From: a virus
Length of the DNA: 28,810 nt
Direction: 5' to 3' (one strand)
Virus record (IMG/VR): IMGVR_UViG_3300034682_000143
Span: 1 to 28,810 of that record
The stretch's first letter is position 1. Each line of letters begins with the position of its first letter. This document shows positions 187 through 28,810 of this stretch, piece after piece. The translations under genes and the position numbers were made by a program. The notes under the pieces were generated by a model that had not been told where the DNA came from, did not search any database, and was given only the letters and a program-made list of their open reading frames with translations.

Positions 187-188
187 TG

Positions 189-207
189 ATCAGTAAGTGT
201 TTACTTA
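189..207 (+). promoter_or_regulatory. Palindromic intergenic element, copy 1 (before terminase block)
   Basis: The left arm GATCAGTAA (189) and right arm TTACT (201-205) flank the 4-bp centre GTGT. The element belongs to a family of six. TATTAT (206-211) abuts the right arm and is -10-like. Alternatively TTTACT (200-205) with an 18-bp spacer and TAAACT (224-229) could form a weak sigma70-type promoter. The copy lies 121 bp ahead of the terminase genes with a hairpin terminator in between. A regulator binding site is likely; whether it activates or represses is not visible. Confidence 0.65.
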
Positions 208-263
208 TTATGGAGGTTCGATCTAAACTGGCGCCGGAGATCTTAGGACTCCCTGTTCAGCTC

Positions 264-2162: not shown

Positions 2163-2169
2163 TTGCATG

Positions 2170-2188
2170 GTCAGTAAATACTTACTAA
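2170..2188 (+). promoter_or_regulatory. Palindromic intergenic element, copy 2 (before portal)
   Basis: GGTCAGTAA (2169-2177), centre ATAC, then TTACT (2182-2186). TAAAAT (2186-2191), overlapping the right arm, is -10-like and is followed by the 6-bp palindrome GGCGCC. The element lies in the 56-bp gap between the terminase and portal genes. Confidence 0.65.
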
Positions 2189-2218
2189 AATGGCGCCGTA
2201 ATGTAGGAGAAGGTACAG

Positions 2219-4676: not shown

Positions 4677-4690
4677 ATCGGCGAGGCATG

Positions 4691-4709
4691 ATCAGTAAAT
4701 GTTTACTGT
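4691..4709 (+). promoter_or_regulatory. Palindromic intergenic element, copy 3 (before major capsid)
   Basis: GATCAGTAA (4690-4698), centre ATGT, then TTACTG (4703-4708). It lies 28 bp ahead of the capsid start codon. Unlike the other copies it has no -10-like hexamer just downstream, which argues that the element itself is a protein-binding site and not simply part of a promoter. Confidence 0.65.
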
Positions 4710-4735
4710 TGCTCACTCGTAAGGAGAAATGAAAC

Positions 4736-9416: not shown

Positions 9417-9430
9417 TTCGCCAACAATGA

Positions 9431-9449
9431 TCAGTAAACATTGACTGAT
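9431..9449 (+). promoter_or_regulatory. Palindromic intergenic element, copy 4 (before tail chaperones)
   Basis: GATCAGTAA (9429-9437), centre ACAT, then TGACTGAT (9442-9449), so the arms are GATCAGT/TGACTGAT with one mismatch. Downstream TGTGATAGTAT (9451-9461) contains an extended -10-like sequence (TG-N-GATAGT) and ends at a terminator hairpin. If it is used, transcription would begin inside the left arm of that hairpin. Confidence 0.65.
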
Positions 9450-9461
9450 ATGTGATAGTAT

Positions 9462-9488
9462 GGCCCTGTTTTGTTACAGGGCCTTTTT
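9462..9488 (+). terminator. Intrinsic terminator between tail tube and chaperone genes
   Basis: GGCCCTGT (9462-9469), a 6-base loop, ACAGGGCC (9476-9483), then TTTTT. This is a textbook rho-independent terminator. It would reduce read-through from the highly expressed capsid/tube block into the chaperone and tape-measure genes, which are needed in small amounts. The left arm directly follows the -10-like sequence of copy 4. Confidence 0.85.
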
Positions 9489-9500
9489 ATAGGAGATGCC

Positions 9501-9824
9501 ATGAAGCTACTGAACCTGGATGACCTGATCCCGACCGAGCGCTTTGTTCGAATCAAGGGTGTTGATTACTCCATTGCCGAACAGTCTCTCGGCAACCTGA
9601 TCGATGCGATCAAGCGTGAAAAGAACGTTGACCGTCAAGATCAGGCCGCCTTCTTCGAGCACATGCTGGACTCAGCCGCTGCGCTGATCCCGGATGCCCC
9701 TCGGGAGATTGTTCGCACCCTCAGCCCCCGCCAGCTGACCGCTGTTGTTGAGTTCGCGTCCGCACGGGACGAGATGCTGCCGGACGCTGACGAGGCTGCT
9801 CAGGCCTCCGAAGAGGGAAAGTAA
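9501..9824 (+). CDS. Tail assembly chaperone, short form (lambda gpG-like)
   Basis: 107 aa. Short chaperone that coats the tape measure protein during tail assembly and is absent from the mature virion. It begins at ATG 9501 with AGGAG at 9491-9495. The protein is small, acidic and helical. The final codons are Gly-Lys-stop on the sequence GGGAAAG TAA. The position between tail tube and tape measure is that of lambda G. The sequence itself does not resemble lambda G closely by eye; gene order, size and the slippery sequence support the call. Confidence 0.88.
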   Translation: MKLLNLDDLIPTERFVRIKGVDYSIAEQSLGNLIDAIKREKNVDRQDQAAFFEHMLDSAAALIPDAPREIVRTLSPRQLTAVVEFASARDEMLPDADEAAQASEEGK

Positions 9825-13100: not shown

Positions 13101-13784
13101 CAGAAGAACATCGACCTCATCAAGAAGCAGCGTGAGCTGACCGAGCAGCAGAAATCGCAGCAGACAACCATCTATGGCGTATGGAAGCGAAGCCTCGAGG
13201 ACATGAAGGACGGTATCAACGAGAAGCTCGGGGCGACATTCGAGGGAGTGTTTGACGCATTCGCAGCCGGCATTGTGGAGGGCAAGGACAGCTTCAAAGA
13301 CATGATGGACTCGCTCACCAAAGACTTGGAAAAGTTCCTGGTCAAGATGGCGATGATGCAGATGTTCGAGTCCACCCTCGGCGGCTTCTTCGGCGGCGGC
13401 GGTGGCGGTAAGGGAGGCAAGGGCGGTGGAATTTTTAGCTTCGCCAATGGCGGGATCATGTCTGAGCTCGGCAGCGTCCCCCTGCGCAAGTACGCAAAAG
13501 GGGGTGTAGCAACCAGCCCGCAGCTGGCTCTGTTTGGCGAAGGCTCCATGAACGAGGCTTACGTCCCCCTGCCTGACGGCAGAACCATCCCAGTGACGAT
13601 GACGGGGCCGCAGGCTGGTGCCGCACCCACCGTCCATTTCAACCTGATCAACCAGAGCGGCATGCCTGTCGAGGCCGAGAACAGAGGGCAGAAGTTCGAC
13701 GGCGAGAAGTACATCATCGATGTCGTGCTGAACGCCATGTCTCGCCCGGGCAGGCTCAGAACAGCAATGCAAGGAGTTAAGTGA
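10149..13784 (+). CDS. Tape measure protein
   Basis: 1211 aa. It sets tail length and is ejected with the DNA. An N-terminal tape-measure domain lies at about residues 128-250 (motif SPYKMNALVDAY, then GKGVISMEELRQQFGEAVP). Hydrophobic segments at about 318-357 and 454-472 could insert in the host membrane. A long charged helical region spans about 480-1060. A Gly-rich linker follows (about 1077-1094), and a lambda-H-like C-terminus (ANGGIM, KYAKGGVATSPQLALFGEG, EAYVPLPDGR) that is usually cleaved in relatives. At about 0.15 nm per residue the tail would be near 180 nm. GAGGA precedes ATG 10149. Confidence 0.95.
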   Translation: MSVAGDVRVGLVLEGADEFKVQVVRAADSLDRIANKMDDYARSTEKARRANSIVSTSIREMALNMELARLTIANLSAGLTALPRALLEQASFFDKTTLLLAGLNVETATFAEAQKQAAVEVKNLMSAAASSPYKMNALVDAYTKLKAADLASPDGFLAGLMNTAGKFGKSSEELKRASVAIQQMAGKGVISMEELRQQFGEAVPDAMGMMARAASVSMGDLVKQVSTGTVEAKQALELLSREMYLSSAGAAVEMTKTWDGALNRISTSLTELAVITGDTGFYDNAVGLANAFNSFLKSDEVVADANRLGLVLTDLSNMMAAVAAFIYDHAKELTMIIGAMFGASWANKIISGVGALTEAYKAESAKWPESTRVVQNQMLELQRDFQRRGLALEADYLASRSAAQDRAILNAMDANKRQYDLDRAALQERLQTLQAGQSRLSAMTNSVANMFGGWTNVIVAAIGVALYALDEFYLKQRRIADQVIETGGLVASFEDLQYASKQMAEDKTRLQERKQGLEESRQAVSALTEAYKLTNEQVRILNSGTSAEKMGLAQKLGLNSVQSGKLFSTFDDVKRADSEIKAMESRIKRANEAISSAKEHVSETFRNQGSGVVANIMAAPLRQVSMEYEKAAKKAEAAAKQESAKYKDDAKAANDAYQKVLTEKLAPARQKAIASMNSIFEGESKAIAAQMEKLKSEKPADGSNESLVLERDKQLAILEGRLERVNKDWDTFKEAISVSHEGLDRLASQMAKTGKIDPSVSYMQSSKIFTAGKQEEIKMQKVALGLLDEQAVKGKELAKLEAAIAAGKYKSLKSATIEQMKIDAMARDMANTEFQEIKERARLRRTTVDRLDDLSISISKKMGSAKGRSDNPLLEWQRAAEQTNEAIKEIEANLKKASGVLPDDAAKIAEIMQKQRMADQYNIAAKMNESIRETNEAMMPNMARTRAEFDRQIAQLDELLDLEMARLNAAKARGTASKEEADLIQKNIDLIKKQRELTEQQKSQQTTIYGVWKRSLEDMKDGINEKLGATFEGVFDAFAAGIVEGKDSFKDMMDSLTKDLEKFLVKMAMMQMFESTLGGFFGGGGGGKGGKGGGIFSFANGGIMSELGSVPLRKYAKGGVATSPQLALFGEGSMNEAYVPLPDGRTIPVTMTGPQAGAAPTVHFNLINQSGMPVEAENRGQKFDGEKYIIDVVLNAMSRPGRLRTAMQGVK

Positions 13785-14152: not shown

Positions 14153-14154
14153 AA

Positions 14155-14173
14155 TCAGTCAATATTTACTTAT
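14155..14173 (+). promoter_or_regulatory. Palindromic intergenic element, copy 5 (before gpL-like gene)
   Basis: ATCAGTCA (14154-14161), centre ATAT, then TTACT (14166-14170). It nearly fills the 30-bp gap, leaving 12 bases before the next ATG, which hold the GGGGG used as ribosome binding site. A promoter with a -10 at ACTTAT (14168-14173) would start at about 14180 and make a nearly leaderless RNA, so this copy is hard to read as a normal promoter. Confidence 0.6.
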
Positions 14174-14182
14174 GGGGGCGCA

Positions 14183-22612: not shown

Positions 22613-23083
22613 ATGGCGAAAATCGTAGAGGTGCCCTTGGCGGGCGCCTCAATCACTGGAGACGTGGCTGTGGTCAGCTTGGATGACTTTGTCGGCTCGA
22701 CTGACATGGCTTACTCGATTGCCCTGTCAGTGAGAAAGGCTGGTAAAAGGGTCGCTCTGCTGACGGAGGTGGACATCTCATATCTGCTCGACTGGCAGGA
22801 TGACCCGGATCCGGAAGTTCGGGTCTATGACAACGCGACCAGTGTTTACGACAACATGACCGTGATCGTCATCAATAGCGGCCCTATCACGAGGGAAATG
22901 CTGAATATCCCGTCCGCGCAGGCCGTCATCGGAGTAACAGCCGATAGCCTCAAGCTGACTCTTGATGCCTTCCGTATGGAGCAGAGCGACAGGATGTTGC
23001 TCGACGAGCTGGAGAAGCTGCTGCCGCCGGACTCGCAGGTCAGAAAGCTACGGGATGAACTACGCAGGAGGATCTACAAATGA
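22613..23083 (+). CDS. Unrecognised protein with MinD/ParA-like pattern and no P-loop lysine
   Basis: 156 aa. Not a family I can name. Residues 18-51 (VAVVSLDDFVGSTDMAYS onwards, ending GKRVALLTEVD) align without gaps to the first strand, P-loop, helix and second strand of ParA/MinD ATPases (VVNQKGGVGKTT ... GKRVLLIDLD), but both lysines of the deviant Walker A are replaced (D24 and S29). A later segment (NMTVIVINSGPITREML) recalls the VLIDTPPG strand. It would therefore be a non-ATP-binding relative, or a chance fold likeness. The C-terminus is a charged helix. AAGGAG precedes ATG by 5 bases, and its stop overlaps the glycosyltransferase ATG (ATGA), so the two are probably coupled. Confidence 0.55.
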   Translation: MAKIVEVPLAGASITGDVAVVSLDDFVGSTDMAYSIALSVRKAGKRVALLTEVDISYLLDWQDDPDPEVRVYDNATSVYDNMTVIVINSGPITREMLNIPSAQAVIGVTADSLKLTLDAFRMEQSDRMLLDELEKLLPPDSQVRKLRDELRRRIYK

Positions 23084-23925
23084 AGCCAGTGGTTTTCTAC
23101 TTTTCGGACGGTAACGACCGGGACTACCTCATCGCCTCCATTCGTTCGCTTCTTGAGAACGGAGAGGCAGGAGAGCCTGTCGTTTTCAGCTATGAACCTC
23201 TCGAGCTGCCAGTACCTCATCGCATGATCACCTTGCCTCCCCTGGAGCTCTGTGAGTTTCAGCTTGGCAAGTACCGTCGGGATGTGTGCATCTCTATGTG
23301 CATGAGGGTCGCCGCGATTGACTGGCTGGCTCAAGAAGGGGTTGAGAAGGCTATTTACCTGGATACCGACACCGTGGTTTTGCGACCACTCACCGAGATC
23401 GTCAGGTTTTTGGACGGCGGAGGAGTTTTCGGCGGTGTTCTCGATGTCGATGAGGAAGACACCGACCAAAGCTCTGGCTGGGCTGGCCGCGCAGCGCCGG
23501 TCGTTGACGTTAACCCCTATGTGAACAGCGGGGTGCTCGCGCTCAACGTTCTGGCCCTGTGCAAGAGCGGTCCGCTCACTCCCAAGCTGCAGATGTTCTT
23601 CGAGCATCATCGGCGGGCTGTTTACCCAGACCAAGACTTTCTCAACTTCATCGCGCACGACTTGGGGGTCATGAGTGTTCTGCCCAAGAAGTTCAATGCG
23701 ATGATGAGTAGGCTGGCGACTATGGCTGACACTGTCACCTATGCGAGGAGGATCGATTTTATTCTCAACGAGGCGGTTGTCGCTCATTACGCATGGTTTA
23801 AACCCGCAATGCGGCAAAAGAAGTCGGCTCTTTTCTACCGGCTGATTCTGCCCTATCTGCCAGAGGGCGACCTGAAAAACAGCGTCCTGAAGAACCTGGA
23901 TTTTCTCCACCCCCTAGCAAAATAG
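23080..23925 (+). CDS. Glycosyltransferase family 8-like enzyme
   Basis: 281 aa. GT8 enzymes are retaining, metal-dependent transferases that move a sugar from a nucleotide donor. Signature elements are in order: an N-terminal nucleotide-fold strand (PVVFYFSDGNDRDYLIASI), the DxD metal motif D95-T96-D97 in AIYLDTDTVVLRPL, N149-S150-G151 (NSGVLALN), D184-Q185-D186 (YPDQDFLN), and His236 in VAHYAWFKP, near the usual C-terminal His. No signal peptide or membrane segment is visible, so it should be cytoplasmic. It follows the small coupled gene and precedes the tail fibre. The acceptor is unknown: tail fibre or tip protein, or host surface sugar, are the main options. Confidence 0.88.
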   Translation: MKPVVFYFSDGNDRDYLIASIRSLLENGEAGEPVVFSYEPLELPVPHRMITLPPLELCEFQLGKYRRDVCISMCMRVAAIDWLAQEGVEKAIYLDTDTVVLRPLTEIVRFLDGGGVFGGVLDVDEEDTDQSSGWAGRAAPVVDVNPYVNSGVLALNVLALCKSGPLTPKLQMFFEHHRRAVYPDQDFLNFIAHDLGVMSVLPKKFNAMMSRLATMADTVTYARRIDFILNEAVVAHYAWFKPAMRQKKSALFYRLILPYLPEGDLKNSVLKNLDFLHPLAK

Positions 23926-23933
23926 CGGCACAC

Positions 23934-23959
23934 AAGATCAGCAAATGCTTACTGATCTT
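23934..23959 (+). promoter_or_regulatory. Palindromic intergenic element, copy 6 (before tail fibre)
   Basis: AAGATCAG (23934-23941) and CTGATCTT (23952-23959) are perfect inverted arms; with the inner bases only one pair (C/A) is mismatched across 26 bp. This is the longest and most symmetrical of the six copies. It covers the -35 position of the promoter described next and could be its operator. Confidence 0.75.
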
Positions 23960-23977
23960 GCATGGTTTAAATATAAT
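23948..23977 (+). promoter_or_regulatory. Probable sigma70-type promoter for the tail fibre gene
   Basis: TATAAT (23972-23977) is a perfect -10 hexamer in an AT-rich setting (TTTAAATATAAT). Eighteen bases upstream lies CTTACT (23948-23953), a weak -35 inside the palindromic element. The start point would be near 23984. A weak -35 overlapped by a palindrome suggests dependence on, or repression by, a bound protein. Confidence 0.6.
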
Positions 23978-24003
23978 GCCTCCAATGTTGAATTGGAGGC
24001 TTT
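23978..24003 (+). promoter_or_regulatory. Hairpin that hides the tail fibre ribosome binding site
   Basis: GCCTCCAAT (23978-23986) pairs perfectly with ATTGGAGGC (23992-24000) across a 5-base loop. The right arm contains GGAGG (23995-23999), the only ribosome binding site for ATG 24004. A read-through transcript would fold and hide it. A transcript starting near 23984 lacks most of the left arm and would leave it free. With only TTT after the stem it is a poor terminator. Confidence 0.65.
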
Positions 24004-27000
24004 ATGACCACACCGACCATTACTGAGCTATATGCCAAGATCGGCGACATGATGGCGAATTGGCAGCGGTTCCTTGACCAGCAAATGAACTGGCAAGCTG
24101 GGCCTTCAGCTGCGAATGACCTCGCCCCGCCGGATAACAACCCTGAGAAAAAAGGCTATCGAGTCATGACCGATGCTGCCGGCAACAAGCGGCAAATCAT
24201 GACTCCGGCGCAGATGGAGAAAATCGTTTCTGACGCCGTACAGCAGATTACCGACCTGAAGCCTGCAGAACTCGCACCTCAAATGGCTGACGTTCGTCGC
24301 CAGCTGAATGAGGTTTCGGCCAAGATGACCTCTACCCGAGCCGAGCTGGTCGGGTTCAGAGACGCCGCCGCCTCGTCTCAGTCAGCTGCCGCCTCCTCTG
24401 CCTCCGCTGCAGATACCTCCAAAAAGAACGCCGCGACTAGCGAAGCCAACGCGCTGGCCAGCAAGAACGCTGCAGCTAGTAGCGCCTCTGACGCTCAAAA
24501 ATGGGCATCCAACCCGGAGAACTCCGCCGTAACACCAGGAAAGTTCTCCTCGATGCACCATGCCATCAAGGCAGAGCAGTCAGCGTCCGTCTCATCGGCA
24601 AAATCCCAAGCCGCGACCGAATCTGCAGCGCTTGCATCGGTCAAAGCAGCTGACGCGAGTGCCGCCTCCGGCGTTGCTGCGGCTAAAGCCAGCGAGGCCT
24701 CGGTCTCTGCAAACATCTCTCAGACAAAGGCTGGAGAGGCTGCATCCAGCGCGAGCGTGGCTGTTGAGATGTCAAAGTCGGCAAAAGCCAGCTCTGACGC
24801 TGCATCTGCGAGCGCAGCCTCCGCCAAGAACAGCGAGACTACTGCGACCACGAGAGCGAATGCGGCATCCCAAAGCGCCACTACCGCTCAGAAGTGGGCC
24901 GCTAACCCAGTAGACACCGCTGTCTCTCCTGGGCAATTCTCCGCGTTGCACCACGCGACAAAGGCCGATGCCTCCGCTTCTGCGGCAGCTGCAAGCGCGG
25001 CGACCGCTACACAGAAAGCCGACGAAGCAGGCAACAGCGCCACGGTGGCTTCGGACAAGGCTACCCTGGCGACCACGAAAGCTACTGAAGCGGCGGCAAG
25101 CGCCAAGTCTGCACTGGACAACAAGAACGCGGCGGGCACCTCCGCTTCGTCTGCGAGCGCCTCTGCTACCACGGCTACCCAGAAGGCTGGCGAGGCTGGC
25201 CAATCGGCGTCTGCCGCCGCCAAGTCGGCTTCTGATTCGGCTGCCTCCGCTGCTGCCTCAAAGACACAGGCCGATGCCGCTGCTGCTTCAGCAAAAATCG
25301 CCCAAGATGCGGCCGCGGTTACAATCGGTGGTCTTGTTGAAGCTGGCGAAGTCAGCATGGCGTCAGGCGACTACCCTCCCCCGATCAAGAGCAAATCCGG
25401 CTCCAACGTCGCTTGCTTCTGGAAAGTCACCACGGCAGGGGTCTCTAAAGTCGGCGGGATCGACTATGAGGTCGGGGATACCCTCGTCTACTCCAGTGCG
25501 ACAAACAGCTATTACAAGATCGACAGCACTGACGCTGTCGCCAGCGTGAACAACAAGAAAGGCGCAGTCGTTCTCACTGCTGCTGATGTTGAGGCGCGTC
25601 CTGACGACTGGGTGCCGTCGTGGAGTGAGATCACAGGGAAACCTGAGACGGCTACACGGTGGCCGACACCTGCTGAAGTCGGCGCTGCTGTCCGCATCCC
25701 GCTGAACCTATCTTCAAGCACCGCTGGACGACGTAGTTGTCGGCTACTGACCGTCGGACTGACTGACAACTCTGCGTCATTCATGGTCACAGCTCAAGGA
25801 GACTTCGGGCAGCGTGAGCGTGGGTGGTACTTCGTGTCCGTCGCCACTCGTGGGAGTGTGATTACGATCAACACTTACCTACTGAACGGCTTCCAGGCCG
25901 ACCCGTTGCGTCTGTTTTGGAAGAACACCGGCTCTGCGTTTGAAGTGTGGGGTGAGTTCTCTGACTACAACAACAATAACTATCTGTTCCCGCTAGGCGA
26001 GCATGGAGCGACGTACAACGTTGACAACATGGGCACTTCGCGTGACTGGACAGGGTTCACTGAAGTAGCAGTCAACCGCATCTACACCACAAACGATAAG
26101 CCGACAGCAGCAGACGTAGGAGCACGTCCGGTAAACTGGGTCCCTACCTGGGACGACGTGACTGGGAAGCCTTCTACTCTTCCTCCTTCGGCACACAGCC
26201 ACACTGCGAGTGAAGTGGGGGCGTTCCCTGCGACTGTCACAGCTCAAGTCCAAGCGAACCCTGGCGTGGCATGGTCGGCATCTTCAGGTGTCTATACTTC
26301 ATCAAACGCCTCCGATTCCGATCTGGTCCTGCAATTGAAGGGGTCTGGGTCGTGCCCTGCGCTACAGATCAAGGCCCGCTACAAGAACGGCGGTTTGTGG
26401 TATCGCAGTGCGAGGGATTCGCTAGGGTTTGAAGAGGGATGGACTGGGGTCTTCACCAACAAGCATCCTCCAACAGCATCCGACGTGAAGGCCCGTCCTG
26501 ACAACTGGGTGCCGTCTTGGGGTGACGTGACAGGCAAGCCATCGACGTTCCCCCCTGCCACGCACTCACATTCAGCAGCAGACGTAGGTGCGATGGCGAA
26601 GAGTGTGGGGACTGTCGGTGAGCATGACTGGAACACGCTGACTACCCCTGGGTCTTACGGTGTGTCCAACATGACCGGTCCTAACAAGCCCTCGATCCAA
26701 GGACTCCCTCCGGTGTACCCCTACGGGACACTGCTAGTGCAGAACAACGGATTGACAATCAGTCAGCTCTACATCACCGACGGGAACAAGATCTACCTGC
26801 GGGACAAGTTCAACACGAACGGATGGGGTACATGGACGGCTGTGTCGAACGACGAGGCTGTTCCGATTAACACCTCAATCGACCTGGACACCCTGACATA
26901 CAGTTGTACCTACGACATGTATAAGGGGTCAGGGGTAACGTTCACGAACGCACCTGAAGACTTCTCTTACGGGTCTCTCCAGGTAATCGGACGAGGGAAG

Positions 27001-28810
27001 GCGACCAACTCCTTCGTTACCCAGATCCTCACATGGCGGGGTGACGGTCAGCAGATGATCCGCACACGCACTGATGGCTCATTCAGTTGGGGTCCGTGGA
27101 AGAAGATCTATTCAGAAGCCCAGAAGCCTACCCCTGGTGAAATCGGTGCTGCCGATCTGAACCACGGCCACGCCCGTCAGTTCGGCTCCGAGCAATCACT
27201 GGGCACAGAGGACCTGGACACCATCAAGACTCCTGGTGTCTACGCCCAACACGCCAACGCGAACACCTCCGCTGAACGTCACTACCCTGAGTTGCTTGCT
27301 GGCTCTCTGATCGTGACTGTGGGGGCGGGCGTCCAGCAGCGTTACCACGTCTACAACACCAGTCGTGTCTGGACGCGAGCCCAGTACGATAAAGGAGCGT
27401 GGACGCCGTGGGCGTGTGAGTACAACACCACAAATAAACCGACTGCTGCTGACGTCGGTGCTGCTCCGGCTGGATATGGTCTTGGCGGCGGCTCAACGCC
27501 GATGGGTGTTAAAAACCAGTTCCTATCGTATGGAGGAAAGCCTGCAACAAACGAAGTGCCGACGCATGGCGCGGGCTGGCAATCAACGTACAACTCTAAC
27601 CGTAGAGCGCAGTTGTACGTTGCAGCCAATGGCGACGTTTATTCTCGATTCTCATTGTCTGACGTTACGTTGGATGCAGATACGGCCTGGGCCATTCACT
27701 ACACATCTGCAAACAAGCCCACCTCGGCCGACGTTGGTCTTGGAAGCGTCAACAACTGGGGCGCCACCGCTGCGGTCAATGACGACAGCGACACCAAATA
27801 CGCCACCGCTGGGGCTGTCAAAAAGGCTTACGACCTGGCGGCCGCAGCGTTGCCGTCTAACAAGGCCGATGTGTTCAAGTCTGCCGGTGCCTTGACGGAT
27901 CTGAACGTCGCTGCTGCCGCCAAACCCGGCTTCTTCCAGTACGGCCCGGGGGCTGTGGGGGCGCCAATGTCAGGCTACGGCCATGGCTTGGTGGTCTCGA
28001 CTGGCAGCAACCCGGGCTCTGGCAACTGGTATCAGCAGATCGTGTTCGGTCATGATTCCAAGATCTATACCCGCAGAGGGGTCAACTCCGCGGCGACCGG
28101 CGCGTGGGCTCGAATCTATACCACTGACGACAAACCATCCCTTGCGGAGCTTGGCGCTGCGGCTGCAGATCACACTCACTCTCTGCGCGAAATCAAGGAC
28201 TCACCCTACAAGGAGGGCTGCGACTGCGCGACCACTGCGAATCTAGCCTCCGCTTATGCGAACGGCAGTTCTGGCGTCGGCGCAACTCTGACCAACAACT
28301 CGACTCTGGCCGCACTGGTCATCGACGGCGTGACCTGTTCTGTGGGTATGCGTGTTCTGGTGAAGAACCAGACCTCTGCGGCTCAGAACGGGATCTACAC
28401 AGTGACCAAGGCGGGCTCAACCACCGAAGCTTGGGTGCTGACCCGCTCCCCGGGTTGTGACACACCTGCAGAAGCAGCAGGCGCGGTCGTCACCGTTGAT
28501 CAGGGAACCGAGAACGGCGGCCTGCTGATGACCACTGAGTTCAAGCGGAACAGCACTATCGGCTCTACCGCAATGAACTGGCGCGTCGTAGTGGACAGCG
28601 GAAACATCGGCACTCAGCACCACGCCTCCGGCGTGTCGGCCGGCACATATCGGTCTGTCACTGTTAACAGCCAAGGCCATGTTACTGGCGGTTCCAATCC
28701 TACGACTCTTGCAGGCTATGGCATCACCGATGCGGCGCCAAGCGGTCACGTCGGATCAGGAGGTGACGCTCATGCGAACGCTACCGGAACCGCCGATGGC
28801 TTTATGAGTG
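24004..28810 (+). CDS. Modular side tail fibre protein, 3' partial
   Basis: At least 1602 codons, open to the window end. Residues 1-120 are a helical base that should attach to the tail. Residues about 121-436 are Ala/Ser-rich coiled coil like lambda Stf, with two copies of an AQKWA-x-NP-...-PG-x-FS-x-x-HHA-x-KA motif. From about 517, fibre linkers of the type NKPTAADVGA and RPDDWVPSW alternate with beta modules, several of them pyocin-knob-like (around 26600-26870, 26870-27120, 27200-27430, 27880-28140). The last part has AQNGIYTVTKAG and VNSQGHVTGGSNP motifs typical of fibre shafts. The true tip and any chaperone gene lie beyond the window. It binds the host surface; the target cannot be read. 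Confidence 0.9.
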   Translation, partial: MTTPTITELYAKIGDMMANWQRFLDQQMNWQAGPSAANDLAPPDNNPEKKGYRVMTDAAGNKRQIMTPAQMEKIVSDAVQQITDLKPAELAPQMADVRRQLNEVSAKMTSTRAELVGFRDAAASSQSAAASSASAADTSKKNAATSEANALASKNAAASSASDAQKWASNPENSAVTPGKFSSMHHAIKAEQSASVSSAKSQAATESAALASVKAADASAASGVAAAKASEASVSANISQTKAGEAASSASVAVEMSKSAKASSDAASASAASAKNSETTATTRANAASQSATTAQKWAANPVDTAVSPGQFSALHHATKADASASAAAASAATATQKADEAGNSATVASDKATLATTKATEAAASAKSALDNKNAAGTSASSASASATTATQKAGEAGQSASAAAKSASDSAASAAASKTQADAAAASAKIAQDAAAVTIGGLVEAGEVSMASGDYPPPIKSKSGSNVACFWKVTTAGVSKVGGIDYEVGDTLVYSSATNSYYKIDSTDAVASVNNKKGAVVLTAADVEARPDDWVPSWSEITGKPETATRWPTPAEVGAAVRIPLNLSSSTAGRRSCRLLTVGLTDNSASFMVTAQGDFGQRERGWYFVSVATRGSVITINTYLLNGFQADPLRLFWKNTGSAFEVWGEFSDYNNNNYLFPLGEHGATYNVDNMGTSRDWTGFTEVAVNRIYTTNDKPTAADVGARPVNWVPTWDDVTGKPSTLPPSAHSHTASEVGAFPATVTAQVQANPGVAWSASSGVYTSSNASDSDLVLQLKGSGSCPALQIKARYKNGGLWYRSARDSLGFEEGWTGVFTNKHPPTASDVKARPDNWVPSWGDVTGKPSTFPPATHSHSAADVGAMAKSVGTVGEHDWNTLTTPGSYGVSNMTGPNKPSIQGLPPVYPYGTLLVQNNGLTISQLYITDGNKIYLRDKFNTNGWGTWTAVSNDEAVPINTSIDLDTLTYSCTYDMYKGSGVTFTNAPEDFSYGSLQVIGRGKATNSFVTQILTWRGDGQQMIRTRTDGSFSWGPWKKIYSEAQKPTPGEIGAADLNHGHARQFGSEQSLGTEDLDTIKTPGVYAQHANANTSAERHYPELLAGSLIVTVGAGVQQRYHVYNTSRVWTRAQYDKGAWTPWACEYNTTNKPTAADVGAAPAGYGLGGGSTPMGVKNQFLSYGGKPATNEVPTHGAGWQSTYNSNRRAQLYVAANGDVYSRFSLSDVTLDADTAWAIHYTSANKPTSADVGLGSVNNWGATAAVNDDSDTKYATAGAVKKAYDLAAAALPSNKADVFKSAGALTDLNVAAAAKPGFFQYGPGAVGAPMSGYGHGLVVSTGSNPGSGNWYQQIVFGHDSKIYTRRGVNSAATGAWARIYTTDDKPSLAELGAAAADHTHSLREIKDSPYKEGCDCATTANLASAYANGSSGVGATLTNNSTLAALVIDGVTCSVGMRVLVKNQTSAAQNGIYTVTKAGSTTEAWVLTRSPGCDTPAEAAGAVVTVDQGTENGGLLMTTEFKRNSTIGSTAMNWRVVVDSGNIGTQHHASGVSAGTYRSVTVNSQGHVTGGSNPTTLAGYGITDAAPSGHVGSGGDAHANATGTADGFMS
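24493..24981 (+). repeat. Two copies of a 32-codon motif in the fibre stalk
   Basis: Copies at 24493-24588 and 24886-24981 (393 bp apart) encode AQKWASNPENSAVTPGKFSS and AQKWAANPVDTAVSPGQFSA respectively, followed by HHAxKA and Ala/Ser. The motif is known in lambdoid and T5-like tail fibres and interrupts the Ala-rich coiled coil, probably as a small knot in the shaft. Confidence 0.8.
25554..28158 (+). repeat. Fibre linker repeats of the KPTxADVGA / WVPxWxxVTGKP type
   Basis: ADVGA-like linkers recur at 26095, 27433, 27712 and 28129 (DKPTAADVGA, NKPTAADVGA, NKPTSADVGL, DKPSLAELGA). The W-V-P-x-W-x-x-(V/I)-T-G-K-P form recurs at about 25605, 26135 and 26505, where DNA similarity is high enough to support recombination. 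They separate the beta modules of the fibre. Confidence 0.75.

Follow-up and report, generated by a model that had tools for sequence, protein, structure and literature searches.

Predicted start-in-stem control and an operator-like palindrome at the tail fibre gene of an Aeromonas phage-plasmid sequence

The tail fibre gene in a 28,810-nucleotide viral sequence (IMG/VR record IMGVR_UViG_3300034682_000143; the whole analysed stretch is called the window here) is, in our judgement, fairly probably held under a double lock, in which an operator would close its promoter and a hairpin would silence RNA reading in from upstream. An initial annotation had placed a palindrome, a perfect TATAAT, and a 9-bp hairpin hiding GGAGG in series before this gene, and all three are present at 23933-24000. 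Its reading of them as a start within the stem is consistent with the sequence, with the fold energies, and with the conservation across differing upstream genes, but it missed the genome-wide set to which the palindrome belongs.

Judged by its sequence, the window is the late region of an Aeromonas phage-plasmid, since its GT8 and fibre sequences are near-identical to those of Aeromonas plasmids and one of these, pKAM329_1, carries RepB, ParA, and late genes. Aeromonas plasmids of 111 to 118 kb are 96 to 98% identical to the window's GT8 and fibre N-terminus, and pKAM329_1 (111 kb, circular), the only Aeromonas plasmid read over its full length, encodes RepB, ParA, and a complete late phage gene set. 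The window's terminase is 62% identical to that of Pseudomonas phage nickie and 59% identical to that of Rhizobium phage RHph_Y2_11. The fibre, GT8, and a 156-aa protein had no close relatives in phage records or viral contigs, nor in genome contigs, and the plasmid collection was the sole source of relatives. The GT8 gene would be the source of any RNA reading into the fibre junction. The two genes at this junction are as follows.

23080..23925, + strand: upstream gene, glycosyltransferase family 8 (GT8); Pfam Glyco_transf_8, E=1e-11; pKAM329_1 protein 97.5% identical
24004..28809, + strand: tail fibre gene, running off the window; PHROG tail fibre matches; N-terminus 98% identical to the pKAM329_1 "tail fiber domain-containing protein"

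At 78 nt, the gap that separates the fibre ATG (24004) from the end of GT8 (stop, 23925) is one of the window's longer ones; it contains the following features.

23933..23960, no strand: palindromic operator-like site CAAGATCAG-N10-CTGATCTTG, with core TCAGCAAATGCTTACTGA at 23938-23955, covering the -35 region
23964..23971, + strand: invariant block GGTTTAAA, directly 5' of the -10 in all aligned relatives
23972..23977, + strand: -10 hexamer TATAAT, invariant in all aligned relatives; predicted +1 at 23984
23978..23986, + strand: left (5') arm of the SD-hiding hairpin, GCCTCCAAT
23987..23991, + strand: hairpin loop GTTGA, diverged among relatives
23992..24000, + strand: right arm of the hairpin, ATTGGAGGC, containing the Shine-Dalgarno (SD) sequence GGAGG at 23995-23999

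The sequence at the predicted fibre promoter is TTTAAATATAATG, and its -35 region is the right half of the palindrome. The TATAAT is the sole copy in the window on either strand, and apart from the palindrome and the SD hairpin the 28.8 kb contain no perfect stem of 9 bp or longer. Geometry from the -10 predicts a +1 at 23984 (A), inside the left arm of the hairpin, in agreement with the start near 23984 proposed by the initial annotation. No good -35 precedes the fibre TATAAT (best match, at most 3 of 6), and promoter strength is therefore uncertain. Beyond a U-U mismatch the 9-bp stem extends outward, with 13 of 14 bases complementary, and takes in both the -10 box and the start codon. A 12-mer, GCATGGTTTAAA, is repeated at 23791 and 23960; it looks like chance, most relatives having CTATGG or GAGG there. 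RNA begun at 23984-23985 would open AUG UUG AAU UGG, a nearly leaderless 13-codon open reading frame (23985-24026) that overlaps the fibre start out of frame.

RNA spanning 23972-24030 had a folding z-score of -4.95, with 0 of 200 shuffles as stable, and the same RNA without 23972-23983 (5' end at 23984) had no excess structure. The predicted cost to open 23993-24008 was 16.7 to 17.9 kcal/mol in read-through RNA with 5' ends from 23880 to 23972, 14.4 kcal/mol from 23978, and 2.7 kcal/mol from 23984; the point at which the cost drops is the predicted transcription start. The predicted unpaired probability of the SD in read-through RNA was 0. Perfect SD-hiding stems reached 9 bp at the fibre but did not exceed 6 bp among 172 starts in RHEph10 or 4 bp among 39 in BUCTxx99, and none of 4 bp or more was found at 40 nickie starts; a perfect stem longer than 6 bp thus hid the SD at 0 of the 251 annotated control starts in these three related phages. 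No Rfam family matched above its gathering score in the window.

The fibre start is present in 11 plasmid records, and the alignment comprised 10 sequences (the window and nine plasmids), 9 of them distinct. Three plasmids have GT8 upstream of the fibre, in pVA7-1 J precedes it directly, and the rest have small genes unrelated to these; from the palindrome on, the cassette is kept despite these differing neighbours. The hairpin loop has diverged while the stem survives: SD-stem pairs are 93.7% kept and those of the whole structure 83.6%, versus 32 to 45% with partners slid. The block GGTTTAAATATAATGCC, which includes the -10, is invariant, and the left-arm part GCCTCCA varies at a single base, where C becomes U and pairing is retained as U-G; this is the only stem pair at which a pair-keeping change was seen. 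Four of the 9 distinct sequences lack the two inner A-U pairs; in these, the outer U-U mismatch becomes U-A, and the stem continues unbroken between the -10 box and the start codon. The outer arms of the palindrome covary among relatives (CAAGATCAG/CTGATCTTG, GAAGATCAG/CTGATCTTC, and GATGATCAG/CTGATCATC). Because the invariant block reaches outside the stem, conservation of the left arm could partly reflect promoter recognition. One candidate junction relative, L002, was set aside as a fragment overlapping the J N-terminus and ending short of the junction. In the plasmids pNY4625-IMP and pNY4622-IMP (L214 and L221), the annotation puts three hypothetical genes in antisense over the 5' part of the fibre gene and starts the fibre further in, which reflects either misannotation or a disrupted frame.

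These data bear on two other readings of the hairpin. It might be a constitutive SD hairpin, a thermometer or attenuator that lowers or tunes translation of a fibre gene transcribed from upstream, with TATAAT as its A/T-rich outer part. The pairing of TATAAT with the spacer and start codon, the missing -35, and the modest enrichment over permuted arms described below all fit this idea. However, TATAAT is invariant and is extended 5' by the invariant GGTTTAAA, which lies outside the stem; the fibre TATAAT is one of four copies adjoining a palindrome in pKAM329_1; and a permanent block of 17 kcal/mol would nearly silence a structural gene. We regard this reading as unlikely. That the hairpin is instead an intrinsic terminator, ending upstream RNA at the junction and overlapping the ribosome binding site by accident, appears highly improbable: the fibre hairpin did not score as a terminator (tail UUUAU, score -5), and divergent relatives have AUUAUG there, even though the stem contains GC and is followed by TTT, longer U runs follow the same stem in L003, L005, and other matches to the layout, and a real terminator (score +23) lies after the palindrome at 9429.

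The palindrome is no one-off. It is a repeated DNA site, one of six copies in the window, all in gaps and with at most 5 mismatches of 22, where none is expected. The other five are listed here, none assigned to a strand.

188..209: operator-like palindrome
2169..2190: operator-like palindrome
4690..4711: operator-like palindrome, before the major capsid gene
9429..9450: operator-like palindrome, then a terminator hairpin at 9462-9483
14153..14174: operator-like palindrome, before a minor tail gene; RHEph10 has one (13521) at the same junction

Across the 111 kb of pKAM329_1 there are 29 palindromes with at most 3 mismatches of 18 versus 0.1 expected, nearly all of them intergenic and lying before early and late genes. 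Under a relaxed consensus, RHEph10 has 37 (33 within the intergenic 11% of its genome) and Y2_11 and N1_10 have 40 each. The Aeromonas consensus finds 22 in B1VFA and 20 in X66, none in nickie, and 0 to 2 weak ones in BUCTxx99; a strict search had made B1VFA and X66 seem palindrome-free, a result overturned by these roughly 20 sites in each. Four of the eight intergenic TATAAT boxes in pKAM329_1, which are promoters by prediction, have a palindrome centre no more than 45 bp away, versus one expected. Near these boxes the palindromes occupy three registers: over the -35, over the -10 (twice, CTTACTATAATGCGC), and just downstream of the -10. Palindromes also often abut an SD. No conserved -10 or -35 was found at a fixed offset in 65 sites, and the idea that the palindrome is itself a promoter or part of a fixed one was dropped. 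Because the register to promoters varies, the palindromes are better explained as repressor operators than as activator sites, and the set points to a repressor operator network like that of P1. Since the fibre palindrome belongs to this set, regulation is probably by repression in the plasmid state and not by T4-like early/late timing.

A candidate for the repressor is an XRE regulator of 151 aa in pKAM329_1 (44001-44456, WP_107961298.1). Homologues occur in all five Rhizobium phages with palindromes and are absent from nickie and BUCTxx99, and in every case (Aeromonas and the five Rhizobium phages) the XRE gene has a palindrome no more than 150 bp upstream of it. The link drawn from this co-occurrence and placement is suggestive and not proof, because two other proteins, one ParA-like and one of 186 aa, are distributed across these genomes in the same way. 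The phages nickie (MG018927) and BUCTxx99 (OR529408) have a late gene order like that of the phage-plasmids, without the palindrome network, the XRE gene, or the ParA-like gene. They may be relatives in which the plasmid state was lost or never existed, and are possible virulent derivatives.

Two further roles for the palindromes were weighed against repression. The absent -35 could be compensated for by binding of a phage late activator near -38, and the palindrome centre does lie about 37.5 bp upstream of the predicted +1. The many registers to -10 boxes, the frequent abutment to SDs, the lack of a fixed-offset element in the 65 sites, and the placement before early and late genes alike argue against this, and we consider it quite unlikely. 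Less likely again is a role in partition, as ParB-type sites with no connection to transcription. The presence pattern shared by the ParA-like gene and the encoding of ParB-like proteins would suit such a function, but ParB-like genes are also found in nickie and BUCTxx99, both without the network, and the palindromes coincide with predicted promoters.

Under the double lock, we infer that a phage repressor, probably the XRE protein, would sit on the palindrome over the -35 and silence the TATAAT promoter for as long as the plasmid state lasts. RNA leaking in from the upstream tail genes is predicted, from folding and conservation, to form the 9-bp stem, extendable to the start codon, and would go untranslated with its GGAGG buried. 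After induction the promoter would fire and RNA would begin at about 23984, within the left arm. This short RNA would lack the full left arm and could not form the stem, leaving the SD exposed.

Parts of this arrangement have precedents. In fold-back inhibition of IS10 and IS50, read-through RNA folds over the ribosome binding site and own-promoter RNA does not; there, transposase expression is protected and not a phage structural gene. For T4 genes e (lysozyme), soc, and 49, upstream RNA hides the SD, and transcripts from a promoter located within the 5' arm lack that arm (PMC3014915). The T4 logic invoked by the initial annotation thus has real precedents, in these genes and in I-TevI (PMC3014915, PMC2988022), although the promoter here is TATAAT and not the T4 late box. 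The fibre leader resembles e, soc, and 49 in that its SD is sequestered in longer RNA (predicted, 17 kcal/mol) and in that its promoter is placed so that RNA lacks the 5' arm (predicted, cost 2.7 kcal/mol). The T4 genes use the late promoter TATAAATA and gp55 for timing control, with no operator network, whereas here a TATAAT with a palindrome on the -35 precedes a tail fibre gene of a phage-plasmid; the leader would work like those of the T4 genes, and its promoter is not a T4 late promoter. In T-even phages, I-TevI, I-TevII, I-TevIII, segB, and mobE have a hairpin over the ribosome binding site only on read-through RNA, with a late promoter in the stem, and at I-TevI an operator also overlaps that promoter (PMC2988022). 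The double lock of operator and start-in-stem is the same, but the I-TevI endonuclease is its own repressor, whereas the site here belongs to a genome-spread palindrome set.

For the network, the closest comparison is with the P1 C1 operators, asymmetric 17-mers at 22 dispersed sites that hold lytic genes off in the plasmid-prophage (PMC8546580). The palindromes likewise form at least 20 dispersed sites (29 in pKAM329_1) that overlap predicted promoters, but they are symmetric and about 18 to 22 bp long; judged from the sites, the set would work like the P1 operators and is not a member of them. The operators and stoperators of mycobacteriophage L5, also numerous, are asymmetric, orientation-dependent 13-mers bound by a monomer (PMC9283540). 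Like the palindromes, they are found in promoters and in short gaps between genes, but the palindromes are set apart from stoperators by their symmetry. The RNA half of the mechanism is thus already known from T4-type phages, and the palindromic operator set looks undescribed; no earlier description was found in searches of an open-access library, which is weak evidence of novelty. Start-in-stem control would thereby extend beyond T4-type phages to the tail fibre of a phage-plasmid and be tied to an operator set with a candidate repressor.

The pattern TATAATGCCTCC-N3-20-GGAGGC-N0-8-ATG matched 5 viral and 48 genome stretches. With extension of the stem past the six pairs forced by the search pattern as an internal test, at least three extra inward pairs were found in 7 of 46 distinct genome matches of TATAAT-GCCTCC-loop-GGAGGC-ATG, versus 2 of 95 hairpin seeds before an ATG without TATAAT (loop-swap null, 0.6). 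Viral contigs, duplicates removed, gave 39 loci with the complementary arm, 25 with a permuted arm, and 10 with the arm after the start; a control TAATAT pattern matched only two short contigs of near-identical length. The layout appears recurrent, but its excess over chance is moderate. A strong case is an HNH/NUMOD3 endonuclease-like gene (L006, 8538-9652) with the TATAAT-stem-SD layout, which echoes I-TevI and mobE. We tentatively suggest that operator, -10, and SD-hiding stem form a transferable read-through-proof cassette, insulating an exchanged gene so that it answers only to the prophage repressor, and that the TATAAT-CCTCC-loop-GGAGG-ATG layout evolved repeatedly in unrelated phages and bacteria. 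Such a cassette would offer a simple reason why fibre modules can be shuffled between phages without wrong expression, and a -10 box abutting the complement of an SD is a searchable signature.

Several palindromes are accompanied by other structures. At window positions 9429-9501, a palindrome is followed by TAGTAT, the terminator GGCCCTG-loop-CAGGGCC-TTTTTAT (score +23), and then an SD; with its -10-like box directly before the terminator stem, this may be another start-in-stem unit, one that acts on termination. In RHEph10 (L188), palindromes at 471-566 and 2749-2827, in the gap before late genes, are followed 3 to 4 nt on by hairpins of 8 to 11 bp; both pairs also occur in Y2_11 and N1_10, and at 2749-2827 the stem sequence differs between phages with pairing kept. 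Another RHEph10 palindrome precedes an 8-bp hairpin in which the SD of gp015, a minor tail gene, is partly hidden (13521-13567), the same junction as window position 14153. As a second start-in-stem this hairpin is suggestive only, its -10 being weak and one pair being lost in N1_10. At RHEph10 position ~104326 (L198) and at 60400 and 57396 (L197), palindromes lie centrally in longer inverted repeats with flanking arms of 8 to 12 bp.
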